Assembly: GCA_943704525.1 (NCBI GenBank)
Contig: CALSCQ010001971.1
Coordinates: 1-42,995, forward strand
DNA length: 42,995 nt
Source of the DNA: Pigoraptor vietnamica
Taxonomy: Eukaryota > Opisthokonta > Filasterea
Direction of reading: 5' to 3'
Shown here: positions 739 to 42,644 of the stretch, one piece after another
How positions within the stretch are numbered: the first letter of the stretch is position 1
Layout of the letters: the number at the start of each line of letters is the position of its first letter
The notes under the pieces: model-generated
What the model was told of the DNA's origin: nothing
Databases searched by the model: none
The model's input: the letters and a program-made list of their open reading frames with translations, nothing else
Program-made: the position numbers and the translations under genes

Positions 739-845
739 CAACACGCCCGCACATGCTCCACTTTCGCATCCATTGAAGGACAAAAACACATGTTATGCCG
801 TCCCCGATAGCACAGAAACTGCGTTTTCGTGTCCTTCACACAAAA

Positions 846-2315
846 ATGGCGCGCGTTGCCATCGCGATCGTCGCCCTCCTGGCGGCCGCCGTAGTCCCCG
901 CCCTTGCGAGCAAGGGATGCCTCAACAACGAGGGCGAGGAGGTCGACTGGTGGTTCATGTACAAGCTCCCCAAGCTGTCCGACAGCTCGGATTCGGCCGT
1001 GTCGGGCGGCTACGGCTTTGCGTACCACGATGCCAAGACGAGCGGCGCGACGCTCAAGATCTTTGAGCGCGGCCTCGACGACAACAGCAACGCGGTGGCC
1101 CTCGTGCACACGCTCCGCCAGATTGCGACGAAGAAGTCGGAGGATTTCGTGCACATGTTTTCGTTTGCTGGCGAGGAGGAGCTTCTGAACGCGACGTACG
1201 CGGCGTCGGACTTTGGCTATCTCATCTACAACGACGAGCCTTACTCTGGGTCGTCGTCGGACACCTACGGGCACACCAAGGGCGTCGTGGGCTTTGACAG
1301 CGACGACGGCTTCTGGCTCGTGCACTCTACGCCGCGCTACCCCTCGAACACGGGCTCGTCGGCGTTTTACTTCCCGGAGAACGAGGTTATCTACGGCCAG
1401 ACGTTCCTCTGCGTGAGCTTCAGCCTCGCCGAGCTTGATTCGGTCGGCGAGCAGCTTCTCTACAACCGGCCCAACGTCTACGCCAAGCTGCTTCCGTCGA
1501 AGCTCGAGTCGAAGCTGCCCAACATTAAGAAGGTGTACGACGGCGAGTACATCAAGGAGGGCGACTCGAGCACCGTGACGCTCTCGTCCAAGGGCCGCAC
1601 GAAGTTCACGTCGTTTGCGAAGAACAAGCAGTGGAACCAGGACCTCTACATTACGCTCGTCGCCCCGTTCTACAAGACGGACTTCCAGGTCGAGACGTGG
1701 CAGCGCCAGGTGCGTTTGATTGCGGACGCCGTGGTTTGCTGTTCTGTGTGTGTGTGCTGCGAGCGCATGTGTGTGTGTGTGTGTGTGTGCTGCAAGTGCA
1801 TGTGTGTGTGTGTGTGTGCTGCGAGTGCATGTGTGTGTGCTGTGTGCTTAAGTGAAAAGAGTCCACTGTCGCACGATTGCTTGCTGACACGTGTCCTGTG
1901 GATGGTGCCCAGGGTACGCTTCCGTCGTACTGCCGCCCCGACTACGACTACGACATTGAGAACGTCGACTCGCTCAAGGTGGACGGCGAGGAGTTTGCCG
2001 AGACCCAGGACCACTCGAAGTGGGCCGCCTCGCTCAAGTCGTCGCCCGGCGTTGTTTGCGTGAGTGTCGGGTCTCTGTGTGACCGTACGTGGGATCGTGA
2101 ATGATACTATCGGCGTGTCTGACTTGTCACTTCATGGAATCCGGGACTGGTGTGCTAATCGGCGTGTGTGTGTGCGTTCTTCACGACAGGTCGGGGACAT
2201 CAACCGCATGTCGACGCAGCGCAAGCGCGGCGGTGGCACCGTGTGCTTCCAGAACGCCAGCCTGTGGAAGAGCCTCACGGCGTCGGTCGTCACGCGCGAG
2301 GAATGCAAGAAGTAG
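846..2315 (+). CDS. Deoxyribonuclease II, lysosomal acid DNase
   Basis: Three exons (846-1709, 1913-2059, 2190-2315) give 378 residues with all junctions in phase 0. Residues 1-20 form a signal peptide (charged start, then a run of Ala/Val/Leu), which is why I prefer the ATG at 846 over the in-frame ATG at 795. The protein aligns from memory with animal DNase II along its length: VDWW and YKLPKL near the N-terminus, GHTKG around H143, a GFWLVHS block, YGQTFLCVSF, and DHSKW around H322. The two HxK motifs (H143-K145 and H322-K324) make up the phospholipase-D-like active site of the family. DNase II cuts DNA at acidic pH to 3'-phosphate ends, normally in lysosomes or phagosomes, so it probably digests DNA of engulfed prey. 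Intron 1 is a GT-rich minisatellite. Confidence 0.95.
1742..1850. repeat. GT-rich minisatellite in DNase II intron 1
   Basis: Blocks of (GT)n are separated by a recurring GTGCTGCRAGTGCATGTG-like element, seen three times. The array fills most of the 203-bp intron 1. Confidence 0.85.
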
Positions 2316-2754: not shown

Positions 2755-4998
2755 TCAGTTGCGCGCCGTCTTGAGGCTCTGCGACGCACGGGGAGCTGAT
2801 GCGACAGCCGCGGGCGTCGTCGACTGTGGCGCGGGAGTGGGCGTCGAGGAAGAAGGTGCAGGCGGCGTGGTCTTGTCGCCCTTGCTGGGAAGCGCGCACG
2901 TCGTCTCGGTGAGCTGCTTGCAGAGAGCCCGCTGCATGTCGTCGAGCATCTTGCGCTGCTCCGCGGAGCACTCGACGCTGACGGGGACGCGGTGCCAGGC
3001 GTTCGTGAGGATGCCGCGAAGGTTCCACTCGGGGGCGATGGTGTCCGGCTGCGTGTTGTACGACGAATCGACGGCCTTGCAGCAGATGTCAAACTAGGGC
3101 GGGGAGCACGGGCACGGAAAGGGAGTGAGTACGGCCGAGCCAACCGGACAGGCAACAAACACGTCCACTGTGCGCAGTGTCTATGTGTGTAGGTGCACGT
3201 GTGCGTGTGCATGTGATGATGTGCGTACGTGCGTACCGTCATGAGGGTACGGCACGCATGCGGCAGTACTACAGAACTAGCGGCAGCGCGCATGACGAGG
3301 AAAGTAACAGCGGCAAGGCAGGACAGTGCGAGTGGGGACTCAAGAGTCCACTGAGCGGCCGACACTTCAGCTAATTGCGCAGCGCCCACTCACATCTCCG
3401 CACGGGCGGTCCTTCGGCAGGGGCACGTCGGCCTCCCACAGCGCCCACGCCCACCCGCGGTTGTGCTTCTGCTCAATGCCGCCCTTGTTCAGGTTGGCCG
3501 TGAACCACGACTTGCCGCCGTCAAGCGACACGTCCACGCGGATAATGCCGCGACCGCCACCAGAGTACGCGTAGCCCTTCACGGTGATATATTCCGTGCC
3601 CTCCTCGAGGACCGTCTCGGGCGCGGGAACGCAGATGGCAGACTGCACGGGCAGCTCCTGCACGGCGGGTGCGTCGCGAATGAACTGCTCCACGTTGTCC
3701 CAGTCGACGCTCGGCGAGAAGCTCTTGTAGTCCTTCTGCTGCCAGAACGACTGGCTCTCCTCGTCGCTCGCGATGATCTTCGTCAGCCACTTGACGTTGC
3801 GCGCGCCAGACGTCCCGGGGACGAGCACGCGCACGGGGGAGCCGTGGTCGCGCGGCAGCGGCTGTCCATTCATCTCGTACGCAAGCAAGACGTCGCCGTC
3901 CACGCGCATCGCGGTCGATGCGGGGATCGACGCGCCGTAGGGTGCCTCGGCGTCCTTGTCCGCGCCCTCAAACTGAATGTGAAGAATGCCGATGCTCTCG
4001 TAGTCCTCGCCCACGCCCGCGTAACGCAGCACGTCGCGCAGCTTGGCCCCCGCCCACTCGGCGTTGCTCATGGCGCCAGACGTCCACTCGAGGCCCTTCG
4101 TCTTCTTGACCGAGTTCATGTCCTTGCGGCGGTTGCCAGTGCACTGCAGCGCGGCGACGACGTGGTGCTTCGGGAACTTGCGCTTGAGGTCGTCGAGCGT
4201 GAGGCGGATGGGGGGCTTGCCGTGGCCGGGCTGTATCTCGATGGCGTGCGTCTTGGGGTCGAGCACGGGGACGGGGAGGTGGTTGCGGACAAAGAAAAGG
4301 TCGTTCGGCGTGATGAAGTTGTCGACGAGCAGCTCGGCGGGCGTCTCTCCGTTGAAGGGCTGCCGCTGCATGACGTTGAGCGCGGGGTGGCGCGTGGGCT
4401 CGTTGGCGTAGGGGTCGTTCGCATCCGCCGTCGCGCTGCTCTGGTGCTTCGCCACGTCTTCGGGGTGGAGATTGCCGATGCGGAGCCCCTCGAGAATGTC
4501 GATAGTCTCCTCCGTCGCGTGCACCGTGTAAATCTTCCAGAAGGGCTCGATGGACCCGCCCGCGGCCATGAGGATCCTCTTCCCGCCGGGGTGCTGCTCC
4601 ACAAACTGCGTCACGTCGTACACGCCCTCCCTATAGACGACCCAGATGCCCGTCGCGGGCGTCTTGTGCTTCGCCACGTCGTCCATGCGCACCGTCGGGA
4701 GGTCCTTCCGGTGGGCACCGGCGCGCTTGAGTGCCGCCTGCGAGACAATCTCGTTGGCGGAGGCCACGCTCGCCTGGCCCCGGATGAACGACGCAACGCC
4801 GTACATAACCGCCGATGTCGCGACCACGGCGCCCGCACCGAACGCCGCGCGCGAGGCCCACGCGGAAATGGCGCGCCGAGAAGAGGACGCGAAGTTTCGT
4901 CGGACGGCGAATAGCGGCATTCGATGGGATGTGAAAGCAGCCTGTCGCACGCGCGTGGCGACGGCGCGCCCCACGGCGCTCACGATGGGCACGGTCAT
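2755..4998 (-). CDS. SUOX: Mitochondrial sulfite oxidase
   Basis: Two exons on the complement (4998-3394 and 3093-2755) with one 300-bp phase-0 intron give 647 residues. Sulfite oxidase converts sulfite to sulfate in the mitochondrial intermembrane space and passes electrons to cytochrome c. Residues 1-50 are rich in Arg, Ser and Ala like a mitochondrial targeting peptide, and 52-72 form a hydrophobic segment. A cytochrome b5 domain (about 101-176) carries the heme histidines H136 in HPGG and H160. The molybdopterin domain follows, with R238 in FVRNHLPVP and the molybdenum-ligand cysteine C286 in QCTGNRR, then the dimerisation domain ending in the conserved [15 protein letters not shown]. About 60 extra residues rich in Ser, Thr, Pro and Ala follow the usual end. 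The b5-plus-Moco layout is that of animal SUOX, not the plant peroxisomal form. The gene is divergent from METTL18. Confidence 0.96.
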
Positions 4999-17585: not shown

Positions 17586-19241
17586 CTACAAGTCGTGGTT
17601 TCGGATAAACCGGTTGCCCTCCGAATTCTTCCCGTAGTAAATGTACTTCGACACGCCAAACGACGTCGAGTGCGTCCCAAACGACTCGTCCGTCTCCGGC
17701 AACGGCGTGTACGAAACAGGCTCCTCACCAAACGATGCAATCGACAACTGCAGCGTGAAATTGCATGACAAAAAACAGATAAGTTTTCGCCAAAGGGAGC
17801 AGTCCAGACGACAGCGACACGATACAACAGCCATCTCGATGAGCGCACGCAGGCAATCGGAGTTCAAGAGGGGTGGGGAGAGTGGGGCGTTACTTTGCGT
17901 GCGCCATGCCATACAAAGAATGAAGCGAGCCCCACCTGGTCCACTTCCTTGGGCCTTACGACGCGCATAAACTGGCCAACCCTCGCCGCCTCCTTGCGCT
18001 CCTCGGCCGACACCGCGCGTGAGTCGAGAAACTTGAGCGCGGGTAGGCGATAGAGCACGTAATATCTGCAATAGCGCGACACAGGCCGAAATGGATGGAG
18101 AGAGTGAATAAATCCACGTCCTACATCATGTGGGACATCATAGCTTCGGAGAGGGTTCAGACAAGGTGCGGTGGGTGTATGTGAGTGTGTGTGTATGTGC
18201 GCGTTGCAGCAAGCTGATACCCACCTGTAGCGCTTGTAGTCGTCCTCGTCCTTCTCGACGAGCTCGTTGGGACAAGCGGCGTTGCCGTGAAGGCTCAAGT
18301 ATGTGAGGCGCGGGAACTTCTTCGATACGGAGTCAAGCACGAACTCAAGGTCTCGCAGCTGCGCCAAAGCAACGGCCGACAACACCATTCAGCGACACCA
18401 TAACGTGCGCGCATCCCCACCAGAAAGCGACATCCAGTCTCACGCACAAGGTACAAAAGACGGCGAGGCAAATATAGCTACACGCAAGCATGCAGTAGCA
18501 CACGAGCGATATGAAGACGCGCCGCAACGCACACAATGGACGGCGCACCTCATTCTTGTTGAGCGAGAGCGTCTGCAGCGCGGGGAGTCCCGGGAAGTCG
18601 ACCTTGTCCCCGATGCAGTTGTTATCGAGAATGAGCTCCTTCAGCATGGGAAATTTGACGAGGTTGCGCACGTCCCTGCAACGCCATAGAAAAGGAGTGT
18701 GAGACAAAGAGCGAGAGCCGACTTTTAACCGTCAAGTTCTATTATTAAAATTTTTTCGAAGCATACAAAGTCTACAATATATCCGGCAATGACCGGCTAC
18801 ATTGGTTGAATGTGAGGGATACTGCAGCAGCAAGAGCAGTCGCACCTTATCGAATTGTAGCTGAGGTCGAGCCGCTCAATCGTCTTCCCGTAACGCGTGC
18901 CGAGCACCTCGGGAATTTCTTCGAGATCTTGCCCCGCGCACGACAGCTGAGAGGGGCTGAAGGGGTTAGGCAGGCAGCCCACGCACGGCAATTCAATAAT
19001 GGACGAACCCTCTTCAGCGACGCGATAAAACCAGCGGCCAATCAATGCTTTAGGAGTATGGAACAAACAGAGCACCACAATTACACACTGGGCAATGTGC
19101 CTTATAGGAGCATAGAGTGGTGGCGCACAAATACATGCGCTCTTATGCCTTCACTTTTGCTACAGCAAAGGGATGAGACAAGCGCACCTGCACACCGTCG
19201 AGCACTGCCGCCGACAGAATATCCGCCGGGCTGGGCGACAT
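17586..19241 (-). CDS. LRMDA: LRMDA orthologue, leucine-rich-repeat protein
   Basis: Six exons on the complement (19241-19188, 18946-18846, 18675-18549, 18358-18225, 18065-17936, 17747-17586) give 235 residues, all in phase. The match to human leucine-rich melanocyte differentiation-associated protein runs end to end: LKELILDNNCIGD, LQTLSLNKNE, RLTYLSLHGNAACPNELVEK, DYKRYRYYVLYRLPALKFLD, FMRVVRPKE and the nearly identical tail YIYYGKNSEGNRFIR. In humans, loss of LRMDA causes oculocutaneous albinism type 7. As I recall it, recent work describes the protein as a link between RAB32/38 and the Commander trafficking complex. A protist has no melanosome, so a more general endosomal role is inferred. 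It is divergent from COMMD3. Confidence 0.95.
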
Positions 19242-19924
19242 TCTCTTTGTGTGGGCGACTGCCGAAGCAGCGCAGCGAGGGAGGAAAGAAAGATGTTTGG
19301 GGAATGAAGGAGCACTATAAGAGAGTGCGACAGGGAAATGGAAGGTGTTGTGAGGATGAAAAAGCAGGGCAAGTGGACTCCGATAACTACAGCGCAAGTC
19401 GTTCGCCACAGTCTGCGCTATTGTGAAATTCGCATAAAGTGCTGACGTTGTGCTTTGAGTGCGCTTGGGTGCGCCTCGCAGTTTCAGCGCGTGTGCGTGC
19501 AGTGGCGTGCAGGTGTGTGCGTGCGTGTGTGCGTGCGCGTGTGTGTGCGTGTGTGGCTGTTCGAGTGTCGTGCCGTAGAATGGGCGCGTGACACACGAAG
19601 ATGGTTTCTGATTGGTGGAAAGTTCGAATTTAAGTGAGCGAGATCTCGGCAAATTTGGGTCACTCGGACGTTAGTCCCCTTTACACACAACACAATCGCC
19701 GCACAGTTTTTTGCAACACACGCGCAGTTCTCCCCGCACAGAGGCCGCTAGTCAAGTTTCTCTGCGTGTGTGACGGCAAAGAGCAGCAGGGACTGTATTC
19801 GTGTGGGAGCTTGAAGGGTTGTCTGGCCCGGAAATACGTCGTAGCGACACACCGGCACGCCCACACATACGCTGAGCTGTTGGCTTGTGGGCGACGTCGT
19901 CCTCGTGATCGGTCGCGTTGTGAA
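19242..19924. other. Divergent promoter region LRMDA / COMMD3
   Basis: The 683 bp between the two start codons hold no other recognisable gene. Visible elements are a purine-rich stretch (about 19270-19350), a GTGCGT-rich tract (19490-19560) and an inverted CCAAT box (ATTGG, 19611-19615). No TATA box is evident. Confidence 0.6.
19611..19615 (-). promoter_or_regulatory. Inverted CCAAT box
   Basis: ATTGG on the plus strand (CCAAT on the minus strand), within TGATTGGTGG, lies 310 bp before COMMD3 and 370 bp before LRMDA. NF-Y sites are common in bidirectional promoters of other eukaryotes; use here is inferred. Confidence 0.3.
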
Positions 19925-21040
19925 ATGGAGGTTCCGGCTGATGTATTGCAAGGCCTCGGTTTGTGTGCCGAGGCGAAGCACTTTAACGACGCTGCGTTTG
20001 GAGCGCTGGTCGATCTCGCGTTCGGGATTGTGTTGCGACGGGCACAAGAGAGCGCCATTGACGGTGAGTGCGACTGACATGGGCCGGCTTGGAGGCGCGA
20101 GAGGGAGAGTACGAATGGGTTGAAGATTCAGCTGTTGTACAGCCGACTGTTGTCGGTGTGCTGTGTGTGAGAACGACCTCACGACGACAAGGGGCTTAAT
20201 GCTCACACCGCACTGCAAGCGTTTTACTAATACTTGGTCATCGGCCCACCAGAGTCGAAGCACTTTGCCAACACCGACAAAAGCATCCTCAAGAAGGCCT
20301 ATTCGTCGCTTGTGGGCGCCATTCTCGAGGCGGCAAGGAAAAACGCCGGCGATGCCGAGTTTGCGTGAGTTTCCGTGTGCGCAATTCGTCCGCCATGCCG
20401 TGCACTTGCGTTGGGACAGTATGCATCTATGCAGCGTTGGACTGATTTGCATGGACACAGATCATTTCTTGACGACGCCAAGATTGTCGGGGCGCGGCAG
20501 CAACATTTTGTGGGGCGGTACACGTCCGCGCGGTCCGATCTGCGCGCGCTGCTGGCGACGTCGTCGTTTACGTTCCCGCACGTGGTCGATGTCGACTGGC
20601 GTCTCGACTATTATGTGAAGGTGCGCACCACTCCCAGTTCGTGCATGCCGGGGGGCGTCTGATAGAATGATAGAACCTTACATTGCGTAACAGCGCCGCA
20701 GCGGATTCATGCATGCTGGGGGTTGGACACGCAACATCAACAACGGCCCTTTCCGCGCACACACATGCATTGTATGCATATGGTCGTCACACACCGGCCC
20801 TCACCCAACGTGTCACTCTCGCACTGGCAGAACAACCAAGTGGAGAAGGTGGACCAGCCCATCTTTCTCGTGTCGCTCAAGACGGAGGGCAACAACGGCG
20901 CCGCGGGCAAGCCCGTGGAGTTTTCTTGCTCCGTGGACCAATTGCAGGACATTGTGAACAGGCTGAAGGAAGCGTGCAAGGTCGTGGAGCGCGCTGAGGG
21001 CGAGAAGCCGCAGGAGGAGAAGAAAGGCGCGCGGAAGTAA
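19925..21040 (+). CDS. COMMD3: COMM domain-containing protein 3
   Basis: Four exons (19925-20063, 20253-20364, 20461-20620, 20831-21040) give 206 residues with matching phases; human COMMD3 has 195. The N-terminal helical domain begins MEVPADVLQGLGLC and contains FNDAAFGALVDLAF. The COMM domain (about 124-195) shows FPHVVDVDWRLDYYVK, the Trp-containing strand of the family, then PIFLVSLKTE, VEFSCSVDQLQDIVNRLKEA and a helical end. A lysine- and glutamate-rich tail closes the protein. SFLDDAKI and the VDWRLDY block favour COMMD3 over the other nine paralogues. COMMD proteins form the heterodecameric ring of the CCC/Commander complex, which works with Retriever to recycle endosomal cargo. The gene shares its upstream region with LRMDA. 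Confidence 0.94.
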
Positions 21041-21515
21041 GACTGGTCTGATGCTCGTGAAAATACAATTCGTTTGCTGTGAATTCAGTCTATGCTATTC
21101 TGGCGTTGGCTTTAATTGCGCCATTGTTTGGAGTACCCCAGCTAGACAGGTGACAGGTACGTGTGTGACAGTCAGTGCTCTGCTGACGCCAGAGACGGGA
21201 TGAAGGAGGGTCAGTTCCAGCCAGAAGTCCGAAACATTGCTAACCGAGATCTCGCTACGATTTGAAACAAGTGGCAGATCACGTGCCGATCGCCGACTGG
21301 AATGTCCGCACTGTACTCTTCCTGCTGCAGATCTGCGCGTCTTGCGCCGTTTCGAGTCCAAAGCAACTACGAAGCAAACGCGTGTGCTCGGAACTTGTGT
21401 GTGCTAGTGCGCGTAATGTCAGCGCAGTGCGCGTGATGTAAGTCTGGTTTCGTTTATACTGAAATTGGACTGCAATCGCGCGTTGCCGGGCGCCGGTTGC
21501 CTGGGGGCTGTGAGA
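21041..21515. other. Intergenic region COMMD3 to PPP1R42
   Basis: These 475 bp separate two genes on the same strand. I see no open frame with good codon use, no TATA box and no long repeat. Confidence 0.55.
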
Positions 21516-23186
21516 ATGACACGCGTGACGGGAGAGCTCATCGCGGCGTCTTCGACCACAAAGAGACTCAAGACGGAGTCGCTCGAACAGTTCCTTGCGC
21601 GCATCACGCACGCGAACTTGTCCGCGAAGGGCGTCGAGCAAATTGTGGGTGCGGGTGTTCACGCTAGTATCGCTTATGGATCGCAGGAGATTAACTTTTT
21701 CTCCATCGCAGGAGAATTTCCGGCCGTGCAAGAGCCTCTCTGTGCTCTATTTGTACGAGAATGCGATCGAGTCGATGCAGAATATTGCGTGCCTGACGCA
21801 GCTGACCCACTTGTACCTCCACGACAACCGGATCGCCAAGATCGAAGGCCTCGCCCCCCTCACAAAACTGACAAAGCTGTGGGTGGTTCTCCAGACGACA
21901 GTGTGTGAGAATGGCCTCAATGGACTTGTATGACATGCTGTTGTTGCGGTAGTAGTCGCCGCATTTTCGCGATACTCATACTACGCATCTGTGCGCATGC
22001 TATTCCTCCACAGTTACCTCAACAACAATGCGATCGCGCACGTTGAGGGACTGGAGACGTTGATGCAGTTGAAGGAGCTTCACCTCCAAAACCAGCGCAT
22101 TCCGGCGCAGCTCACTTTTGCGCCTTCCGTTGTGCGCGCGCTCGCGGTGAGGGGGCTTGTACACTGCATGTCGAACGTCGCGTGCTGCGCTGTGTCCTAA
22201 CTGCTCCGTGAAACGAGAGTTGTCCGGCACCTACTGATCGGAAGCCCACCGGTCACGTGCACCGCAGGGCAACCTGCGCATTCTGAATGTGTCCGGGACG
22301 AACCTGGAATCGCTGGAGCCGCTTGTGGGCCTCGCTTCCCTCCAGACGCTCGTCGTCGCCAACAACAAACTCGCCGTCATCGAGGTACGCGCCTTAGCGA
22401 TGCGCTTGCGATCTCGCCATGTAAAGTGGTGCAGAGGCGTCGATGTAATCGCTAGTCGCCGCTGTGTACCGGTTGGATATTTTGCCCTTGCAGTCGTGCT
22501 TGTGTGTAATTGTATTGGAGCCCTCCATGGCCGATCGCCATGCAGGAGGTGTGCCTGCACGTATCCCAGATGAAGCGGCTATCGACCCTCGACCTCCGCG
22601 TGAACCCTGTCTGCGAACTCACAAAGTACCGGGAGCGCATTATCCTCGCCTCCGAGTCACTCGGTGGGTGTTCGCCTCCCTATGTCGCACGCACTTCCAA
22701 CTCAGGCACACACACACGCACGTGGAATGGGAATTTGGTATATCTCATATGTGTGTGTGTGTGTGGCTGCTAATCGCCCGAGTCCTTTCTGCAGCTGTGT
22801 TGGACGACAAAAAGGTCGCGGACAACGAGCGGCGCTTTCTCGTTAACCTCAAGGCCGTTCACGTCGCGAGGCAACGGAAGGCTTCGATGGAACAGCCCGA
22901 GCGTGTTGTGTTGAGGTGGGCGTTCGCTCACGATTTTCCAGTTGCGTGGCGTGCGGTTGTGGTGTGTGTTTATTGTGCGTGTGTGCGCGAATGTGTGCAT
23001 TGTGTTTGGCATCTGTGTGTGAGTGAGTGAGTGTTAAAGTGTGGAACTATCATTGAGCGCTTCTCTCGTCCACGCAGTTCGCCGCAAGCGATGTTTGAGG
23101 ATGACTTCGGAGACGTCCCACAAATCGCATACACAGCCGTGCCATCGAAGTCTCTTGGTGGGAAGACGGGAAGGACGCGCGTATGA
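21516..23186 (+). CDS. PPP1R42: PPP1R42 (LRRC67) orthologue
   Basis: Seven exons (21516-21644, 21712-21878, 22014-22146, 22268-22384, 22546-22663, 22795-22915, 23078-23186) give 297 residues; human PPP1R42 has 309. The protein begins MTRVTGELIA and continues FLARITHANLSAKGVEQI, where the human protein has CLKKITHINFSDKNIDAI. It then shows repeats LSVLYLYENAI, LTHLYLHDNRI, YLNNNAIAHVEGLE, the diagnostic LKELHLQNQRIP, LRILNVSGTNLESL and LRVNPVCELTKYRERIILAS. The family member in mammals is a protein-phosphatase-1 regulatory subunit found at centrosomes and flagellar structures. That supports a basal-body or flagellum function and suggests a flagellated lineage. Most junctions fall near leucine-repeat boundaries. 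Confidence 0.94.
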
Positions 23187-25425: not shown

Positions 25426-39222
<13,797 letters not shown>

Positions 39223-41059: not shown

Positions 41060-42644
41060 CTACGGGTGCCTCTGAAAAAATTCCGATATGAGCCTGTCCA
41101 GTTGCGTCGTCTCCACAAACAGGCCGTCGTGGCCGTCCCTTGCGTGGATTGCCGCGTACTCTCCCGCAGCGAGGGCCGCGCACACGGCGCGCTGCTCGCT
41201 CACAGGGTACAGCAGATCAGACTCGATGCCCACGACCAGCGCAGGCTGCGTGAGCGACCGCAGCGCCGCCTCAATCCCTCCGCGCCCTGCGCCGGCGTCA
41301 TGCACGTCCATCGTCTGCGTGAGCCGCACGTAGCAGTTGGCGTCAAAGCGATGCACCAGCTTGCGCCCTTGGTACCGCAGGTAATTCTGAATCGTAAACA
41401 GGTACGGGTCGTCGTCCCGCTCCGCGCGATACTTCTCGGGGACGGACGAGAGGTCTTGCGGCCGCACGCCGAACTTCTCCTCGAGTGACTCTTGCGAGCG
41501 GTAGGTGAGCATGGCAATCATGCGCGCGGTCCCCAGCCCCGCGAGCGGCTGCGCGTCGGGCTCGTAGCGGCCGCCCTTCCACGCCGGATCCGCAAAGATC
41601 GCCTGTCGCTGGCACTCGTTCCACCCGAGGCACCAGGCCGACTGGCGCGCGCACGCAGCGATGAGGAGCATGTGTCGCGTGTAGTCCGCCCCAAAGAAGC
41701 CCCACTCGATGGCCTGGATCACGTGGACAGGCGGCGTCAAGCTCACACGTTGGACACACAAGCGGCGGCGACGGCACGCGTACCTGCATGCCACCCAGGG
41801 ATGCGCCTATGACTGCGTGCACGTGACGTACGCGAAGTACGTCGTCCAGAACGCGCCTGTGCAGGCGGACGCTGTCGCGAACCTGGTGCGTGGGCGCGGC
41901 GACAGTAAGTTGCAATGCTCTCCACAATTACGGTGCGACAGCACGTCTAGGCAATCACTGTTGACCATCAGGCATTGTACGCGCGCATGTAGTGTGCGTG
42001 GGGACCCTTCACGTACCGTCACTTGCGGAAAGTCTGCGCCGTACGGTTTTCCCGTCTCCGGATTCAGAGTGACAGGGCTTGCCGTGCCATACGGCGACCC
42101 AAGCACATTTGCGCAGAAGATAAAGTACCTGCAAGAGACGCACGCACGTCAGGGAATACCGCGCAGGCACACACACACATGGGCGCGTGCAGTCGTCGAC
42201 ATTGAGGCCAGCCAGGGATGCTTCGTGGCGATTCGCATGACTCACTTGTTCGAGTCGAGCGTTTTTTCAGGGCCGACAATCGCCGTCCACCAATTTGAGA
42301 CGTCCGCGTGCCCCGTGAGTGCGTGACACACCTACACGCGAGAGCACCCATGAGTAATCATGCGACACAACCCTAAAGTTGAGCCAACGCCAAGAGCACA
42401 TGATGCAAAAAATGGCACGAAATGGACGTACCACGATCACGTTATCCGCCGTTTCGTTGAGCGTCCCCCACGTCTTAAAGCCCACTTCCACGTTCTTCAG
42501 TACAATGCCGGAGTCCAGCTTGTGCTCTGCGAACACGACCATGCTCTGCTCGAGGACGATGCCATCGCCAACGGAGAAGCGGTGCGGAAACGGCGTCAAC
42601 GTCGGCCCGTGCGCCGCCGCCAGGGGCGAAACTGGGTTCGTCAT
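41060..42644 (-). CDS. Homoserine O-acetyltransferase (MetX family)
   Basis: Five exons on the complement (42644-42432, 42331-42246, 42128-42017, 41882-41784, 41713-41060) give 387 residues, all in phase. The enzyme is an alpha/beta hydrolase that acetylates L-homoserine with acetyl-CoA, the first committed step towards methionine. Motifs seen: FKTWGTLNETADNVIV, CHALTGHADVSNWW, LGSPYGTASPVTLNPETGKP, the nucleophile elbow GASLGG with S165, IEWGFFG, ARQSAWCLGWNECQRQAIF, the acidic residue D336 in ESDLLYP and H365 in GHDG. Together these are the Ser-Asp-His triad. Some MetX-family enzymes use succinyl-CoA or act on serine, so the exact donor is inferred. The ATG at 42644 (MTNPVSPL) precedes the first conserved block by about 25 residues, and no targeting peptide is evident. 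Animals lack this gene. The 3' end converges on ATG10. Confidence 0.94.

Follow-up and report, generated by a model that had tools for sequence, protein, structure and literature searches.

The 42,995-nucleotide stretch of contig CALSCQ010001971.1 analysed here, referred to as the window in the rest of the text, carries two divergently oriented genes: an orthologue of LRMDA (C10orf11/OCA7), a human albinism gene, on the minus strand and an orthologue of COMMD3, a core subunit of the Commander complex, on the plus strand. We consider it quite likely that the two products belong to an ancient RAB32-LRMDA-Commander circuit like that of human cells, with an adaptor that predates animal melanosomes; this is the best explanation that we have for the data. 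The link is supported because the partners and their contact residues are present in the same genome, and not because the two genes are adjacent. Twelve of the thirteen contact residues proven in human (seven tested in LRMDA, three in RAB32 and three in VPS35L) are kept, the sole loss being the Asp at position −3 of the LRMDA Retriever motif.

Results

The exon structures of both genes are models predicted from genomic DNA. LRMDA (17586..19241, minus strand) is modelled as six exons coding for 235 amino acids (exons 1-3 at 19241-19188, 18946-18846 and 18675-18549; exons 4-6 at 18358-18225, 18065-17936 and 17747-17586, with the stop codon ending at 17586). COMMD3 (19925..21040, plus strand) is modelled as four exons coding for 206 amino acids (19925-20063, 20253-20364, 20461-20620 and 20831-21040). 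All eight introns, five in LRMDA and three in COMMD3, have GT-AG borders. A first-pass annotation of the window had described the genes as lying head to head over a common 683-bp upstream region, and the spliced models place exactly 683 bp (19242-19924, 55% GC) between the two start codons.

To establish the identity of the minus-strand gene, we compared its product with human LRMDA, using a reference of the 198-aa form (an offset of 28 converts it to the 226-aa numbering used below). This reference sequence agrees with PMC12491506 at 7/7 published positions (Y106, L119, F145, L189, I221, D223 and L226). BLASTP aligned residues 52-235 with residues 16-198 of the human 198-aa form at 54.3% identity (E=4.2e-66), leaving residues 1-51 outside the alignment. 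Since Pfam returned generic leucine-rich repeat (LRR) families only, and no chain named LRMDA was found among the best 60 of 124 matched PDB sequences, the case for orthology depends on this human comparison. Identity amounted to 70/113 over the LRR and cap, 14/39 in the middle of the tail (7/19 and 7/20, human 167-205) and 15/21 at the tail end (human 206-226), the better conserved of these two tail parts, and the equivalent of human 208-222, a segment picked after viewing the alignment, is identical at 14/15 positions. This continuation of the similarity through the tail ruled out a generic SDS22-like LRR protein. A search of the genome with LRMDA gave five matches at E≤1e-5, all of them its own exons, and no relative was found among 180 (genome_contigs) and 21 (viral_contigs) pattern-matched stretches, sets without eukaryote relatives. 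Judged by its sequence, the minus-strand gene is a true LRMDA orthologue.

The best PDB match of the plus-strand product was human COMMD3 (8f2r_C; phmmer, E=4.3e-31, 111.8 bits), with residues 1-192 aligned on 1-192, far ahead of the second-best match, COMMD4 (E=7.5e-8). Both Pfam COMM_domain and COMM_HN scored over their cut-offs. The likeness to COMMD3 of the human Commander CCC core (8f2r chain C) thus extends over the HN and COMM domains, the differences being fourteen mostly charged extra residues past the aligned part and a different genomic neighbour. These matches identify the gene as a true COMMD3 orthologue, and the first-pass view that both genes are clear orthologues therefore stands. 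COMMD3 has been reported to be required for pigmentation and to be enriched in melanosomes (PMC10901463).

That LRMDA connects RAB32 to Commander, as the annotation had noted, is established in the literature for human cells, where active RAB32 is bound by the LRMDA LRR domain and Retriever by the tail, through an SNX17-like C-terminal motif, so that Commander is recruited (PMC12491506). According to the same source, the human LRMDA substitutions Y106D, L119D and F145D abolish RAB32 binding, while L189D, I221A, D223A and L226G abolish Retriever binding. Exons 4-5 of the gene described here (17936..18358, minus strand) code for the equivalents of the three RAB32-contact residues, Y114, L127 and F151. 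On the Retriever side, the last exon (17586..17747, minus strand), which codes for the tail that is disordered in human, retains L198, equivalent to the VPS26C-contacting human L189, together with I230 and L235. Read directly from the DNA, the protein ends in I-R-N-H-D-L followed by the stop codon (17586..17606, minus strand). The Retriever tail motif is defined as [IL]x[DE]xx[IL]> (PMC12491506); IRNHDL fits at the −5 Ile and the terminal Leu and departs from it at −3, which is Asn. Being drawn from a single assembly, this Asn may be a sequencing or assembly error, and it could also still serve Retriever docking.

Partners were sought in the genome of origin (G000; 32.5 Mb, 1395 contigs). A RAB32 gene on C1136, its exons joined by eye, codes for a protein whose top three PDB chains are Rab38/Rab32 (E=5.5e-85 to 9.1e-85), with weaker matches to Rab7L1 (1.7e-62) and Rab7 (6.7e-36). 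Besides being nearest to Rab32/38, it has the FALK stretch and the IAGQERFGNMTR switch II, in line with the FALK and switch II consensus given in PMC4728774. It contains VDFALK and DIAGQERFGNMTR, and from VDFALK it follows that D61, F62 and L64 are kept, the residues at which D61L, F62D and L64D impair LRMDA binding (PMC12491506). VPS35L lies on C1274, where 16/16 matches of a 786-aa human piece fall. Its docking pocket retains R248, W280 and K283 in the VYDRI and NWFFK exons, which are identical to human at 22/25 and 21/32 positions, respectively; R248A, W280A and K283E weaken LRMDA binding (PMC12491506). VPS26C was located on C580 (E=1.3e-47 with human VPS26C compared to 4e-4 for the next match), and CCDC22 (C1050) and CCDC93 (C1382) each scored over their model cut-off. 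An exon-wise COMM search led to four places, COMMD3 itself and exons whose best matches are COMMD6, COMMD9 and COMMD1. The Commander genes identified are thus VPS35L, VPS26C, CCDC22, CCDC93 and COMMD1, 3, 6 and 9. SNX17 is also present (L025, on C889) and ends in FEGGISDDDL, a canonical Retriever motif nearly alike to the human tail IGDEDL. This ending shows that the Retriever tail motif is conserved over a great distance.

We also assessed the adjacency of LRMDA and COMMD3. Assuming about 9,000 genes, a figure extrapolated from reading about 12 genes in the window, a network gene (about 20 being eligible) would fall next to LRMDA on its 5′ side with a chance of 0.002; over the whole genome, 0.046 adjacencies between network genes are expected (about 21 network genes in 9,000), both being rough values with assumed set sizes. 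The pairing is uncommon by this estimate, but it was spotted post hoc with many pairs open to view, and it counts as weak evidence only. The locus is compact, with 222 bp between the LRMDA side and a convergent frame and 475 bp between COMMD3 and the next likely start. Besides LRMDA, ten network genes were located, one of them COMMD3, and they sit on ten separate contigs; because contigs are short, wider linkage would be missed. Given the ordinary spacing, the scattered network genes and a palindrome that occurs genome-wide, we rejected adjacency as functional proof.

That palindrome, the perfect 10-mer CGAGATCTCG, lies within the divergent region at 19639..19648. A second copy (21245-21254) precedes the next gene, an LRR gene directly after COMMD3 (21516-23000, end approximate) that we take, from its reading frame, to be PPP1R42/LRRC67-like, and that would suggest an organism with cilia. 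Two copies in the window are unremarkable because 9 of the 55 different palindromic 10-mers in it are found there two or more times; only the genome-wide count stands out, with 448 occurrences of CGAGATCTCG compared to 6 for its reversed control and an expectation of about 30, scaled from a shuffle mean of 0.04 in the window. Since it is enriched genome-wide and its flanks were unrelated at 15 sampled sites, CGAGATCTCG is likely a common cis element, not specific to Commander. It was missing at 51/55 sampled loci, in a search reaching about 1.5 kb from the matched exon so that promoters may be missed, and the other four loci are the window's own contig. Ten frames near other copies, four with a Pfam match (pieces of a dynamin, a kinase, a cyclase and a tRNA synthetase) and six without, had no functional theme in common. 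For now, CGAGATCTCG was therefore rejected as a mark of a Commander regulon.

The host of the pair is probably not an animal. Pieces of MetX, the homoserine O-acetyltransferase, occur at 41063-42644 on the minus strand (NCBIfam TIGR01392, E=1.1e-61 and 3.9e-6, under the full-length cut-off). Animals are not known to have this enzyme, and its presence together with the small genome argues for a non-animal host. The first-pass annotation had assumed an organism without melanosomes. This is unproven, as three tyrosinase-family loci are present in the genome (L071 on C1298, L072 on C983 and L073 on C657), one of them an open frame of 510 aa whose start is signal-like. All three frames contain an HxGPxFxxxHR stretch of the copper-site type, and a pigment-related use in the host is therefore possible. 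Elsewhere in the window, plus-strand pieces at 27339-38176 matching Arm_4, Laminin_G_3, PH_BEACH, Beach and WD40 probably form one large BEACH protein, a trafficking gene of the neurobeachin/ALFY type. Two further genes code for a DNase II (795-2060, plus strand, Pfam E=1.1e-69) and for an enzyme of the sulfite oxidase type (3370-4998, minus strand; Oxidored_molyb, Mo-co_dimer and Cyt-b5).

Discussion

The identities of the two genes, the named partners and the retention of 12/13 contact residues are observations; what we infer is protein binding in this organism, the membrane involved and a non-animal host. In the proposed circuit, RAB32 in its GTP-loaded form, on a membrane of endosomal or lysosome-related type, would bind the LRR domain of LRMDA, whose C-terminal tail would dock on Retriever between its VPS26C and VPS35L subunits and thereby recruit Commander, with COMMD3 as a core ring subunit of the recruited complex. 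Like the human complex described in PMC12491506, the system has an LRR protein with a tail, the RAB32-contact Tyr, Leu and Phe, the equivalents of L189 and I221, a free terminal Leu and the 14/15 match over 208-222, and it is accompanied by a RAB32 and a Retriever that carry their contact residues. It differs by the −3 Asn in place of Asp, by its probable non-animal host and by the divergent arrangement of LRMDA with COMMD3. With the SNX17-Retriever interaction (PMC11339278) it shares the type of C-terminal docking motif and the VPS35L pocket, and the SNX17 of this genome ends in ISDDDL; SNX17, however, is a PX-FERM cargo adaptor, whereas LRMDA is a RAB32 effector.

An early origin is in keeping with reports that the last eukaryotic common ancestor already had the CCC subunits (PMC10187114) and Rab32 classes (PMC4728774). 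Depletion of a sea-squirt homologue leads to developmental defects, as cited in PMC9703636, which hints at a role beyond pigment. The age of LRMDA was not treated in the titles and abstract openings among the literature matches listed, the terms "evolution", "ortholog" and "phylogen" had no match in the accessible text of PMC12491506, and a literature search combining Rab32, Commander and Dictyostelium gave no match. PMC4232348, a candidate source on C10orf11, was set aside, its relevant passages being concerned with C10orf118.

Several points weigh against the ancient circuit. The reading is drawn from one genome, and conserved contact residues are not proof of binding, as several may persist for folding alone. 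The 15/21 identity of the tail end is not significant when set against the rest of the aligned LRMDA (P=0.10). The exon-wise search recovered 4/10 COMMDs, the other six not being found by it, and VPS29 and DENND10 lay outside the search. The Vps35 Pfam model gave 0 matches in the genome, an uninformative profile, VPS35L then being found by sequence, and the coiled-coil models also matched prokaryote controls below cut-off (5/14 for CCDC22 and 3/14 for CCDC93). Human D223 is replaced by Asn in LRMDA, while SNX17 of the same genome has Asp at this position. Human LRMDA D223A loses Retriever binding (PMC12491506) and human SNX17 D467A loses nearly all of it (PMC11339278), which would fit an LRMDA that is a RAB32 effector without Commander, having kept RAB32 binding and lost or weakened its coupling to Retriever. 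Yet Asn differs from Ala, and it would be hard to account for the conservation of the terminal Leu, the −5 Ile, L198 and the stretch 208-222 if there were no partner. We thus regard such a RAB32-only effector as unlikely, although the −3 Asn makes the Retriever coupling in this species less certain than the RAB32 coupling. The substitution also provides a natural variant of a site that is indispensable in the human protein.

The arrangement of the two genes calls for a separate judgement. That LRMDA and COMMD3 are chance neighbours, their order being meaningless, seems fairly likely to us; this view bears on the adjacency alone and leaves room for an ancient RAB32-LRMDA-Commander circuit, in which the head-to-head order would be incidental or at most a convenience for co-expression. 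The compact locus, with 222 and 475 bp to the flanking frames, the many pairs open to a reader against 0.046 expected adjacencies, the dispersal of the ten other network genes over ten contigs and the presence of CGAGATCTCG both genome-wide and before the next gene all favour chance. Against it stand the low prior for this very neighbour, the membership of both products in one published complex and the short contigs, which would hide wider clustering. Alternatively, the 683-bp region could be a putative bidirectional promoter that co-regulates both genes, so that adaptor and complex are produced in concert. A single short common region bearing an enriched palindrome (448 versus 6, with about 30 expected), likely a cis element given its unrelated flanks at 15 sampled sites, speaks for this idea, which we hold only tentatively and think rather doubtful, since CGAGATCTCG also precedes the neighbouring PPP1R42-like gene, 51/55 sampled loci were without it within the reach of about 1.5 kb and the ten frames near its copies had no common theme. 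COMMD3 and LRMDA might also be linked through a Commander-independent role of COMMD3 that involves ARF1 binding. A Commander-independent endosomal role through its N-terminal domain is known in human cells (PMC12370252), but the abstract of that source reports no tie of this role to LRMDA or RAB32, and the published LRMDA contact is Retriever (PMC12491506), which makes this link extremely improbable. The first-pass annotation had taken the physical pairing to suggest a partnership older than pigmentation: the older origin is indeed the better reading, given the partners and the 12/13 residues, but the pairing itself, with its ordinary 683-bp spacing and the scattered network genes, adds little to it.

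LRMDA and COMMD3 are orthologues of known genes, and the novelty lies in an adaptor that appears to predate animals. A more far-reaching scenario, which we think very unlikely, is that the full RAB32-LRMDA-Commander module, co-regulated by a divergent LRMDA/COMMD3 promoter, acts on a lysosome-related organelle of a non-animal, and that this organelle handles tyrosinase-family enzymes; if this were true, the sorting core of animal melanosomes would be older than both animals and pigment cells. The ancient-circuit reading asks for less: the RAB32-LRMDA-Commander adaptor would be a general endolysosomal device older than animal melanosomes. The occurrence of LRMDA, RAB32 and Commander together in a probable non-animal argues for such a general adaptor, of which pigment cells would be later users.

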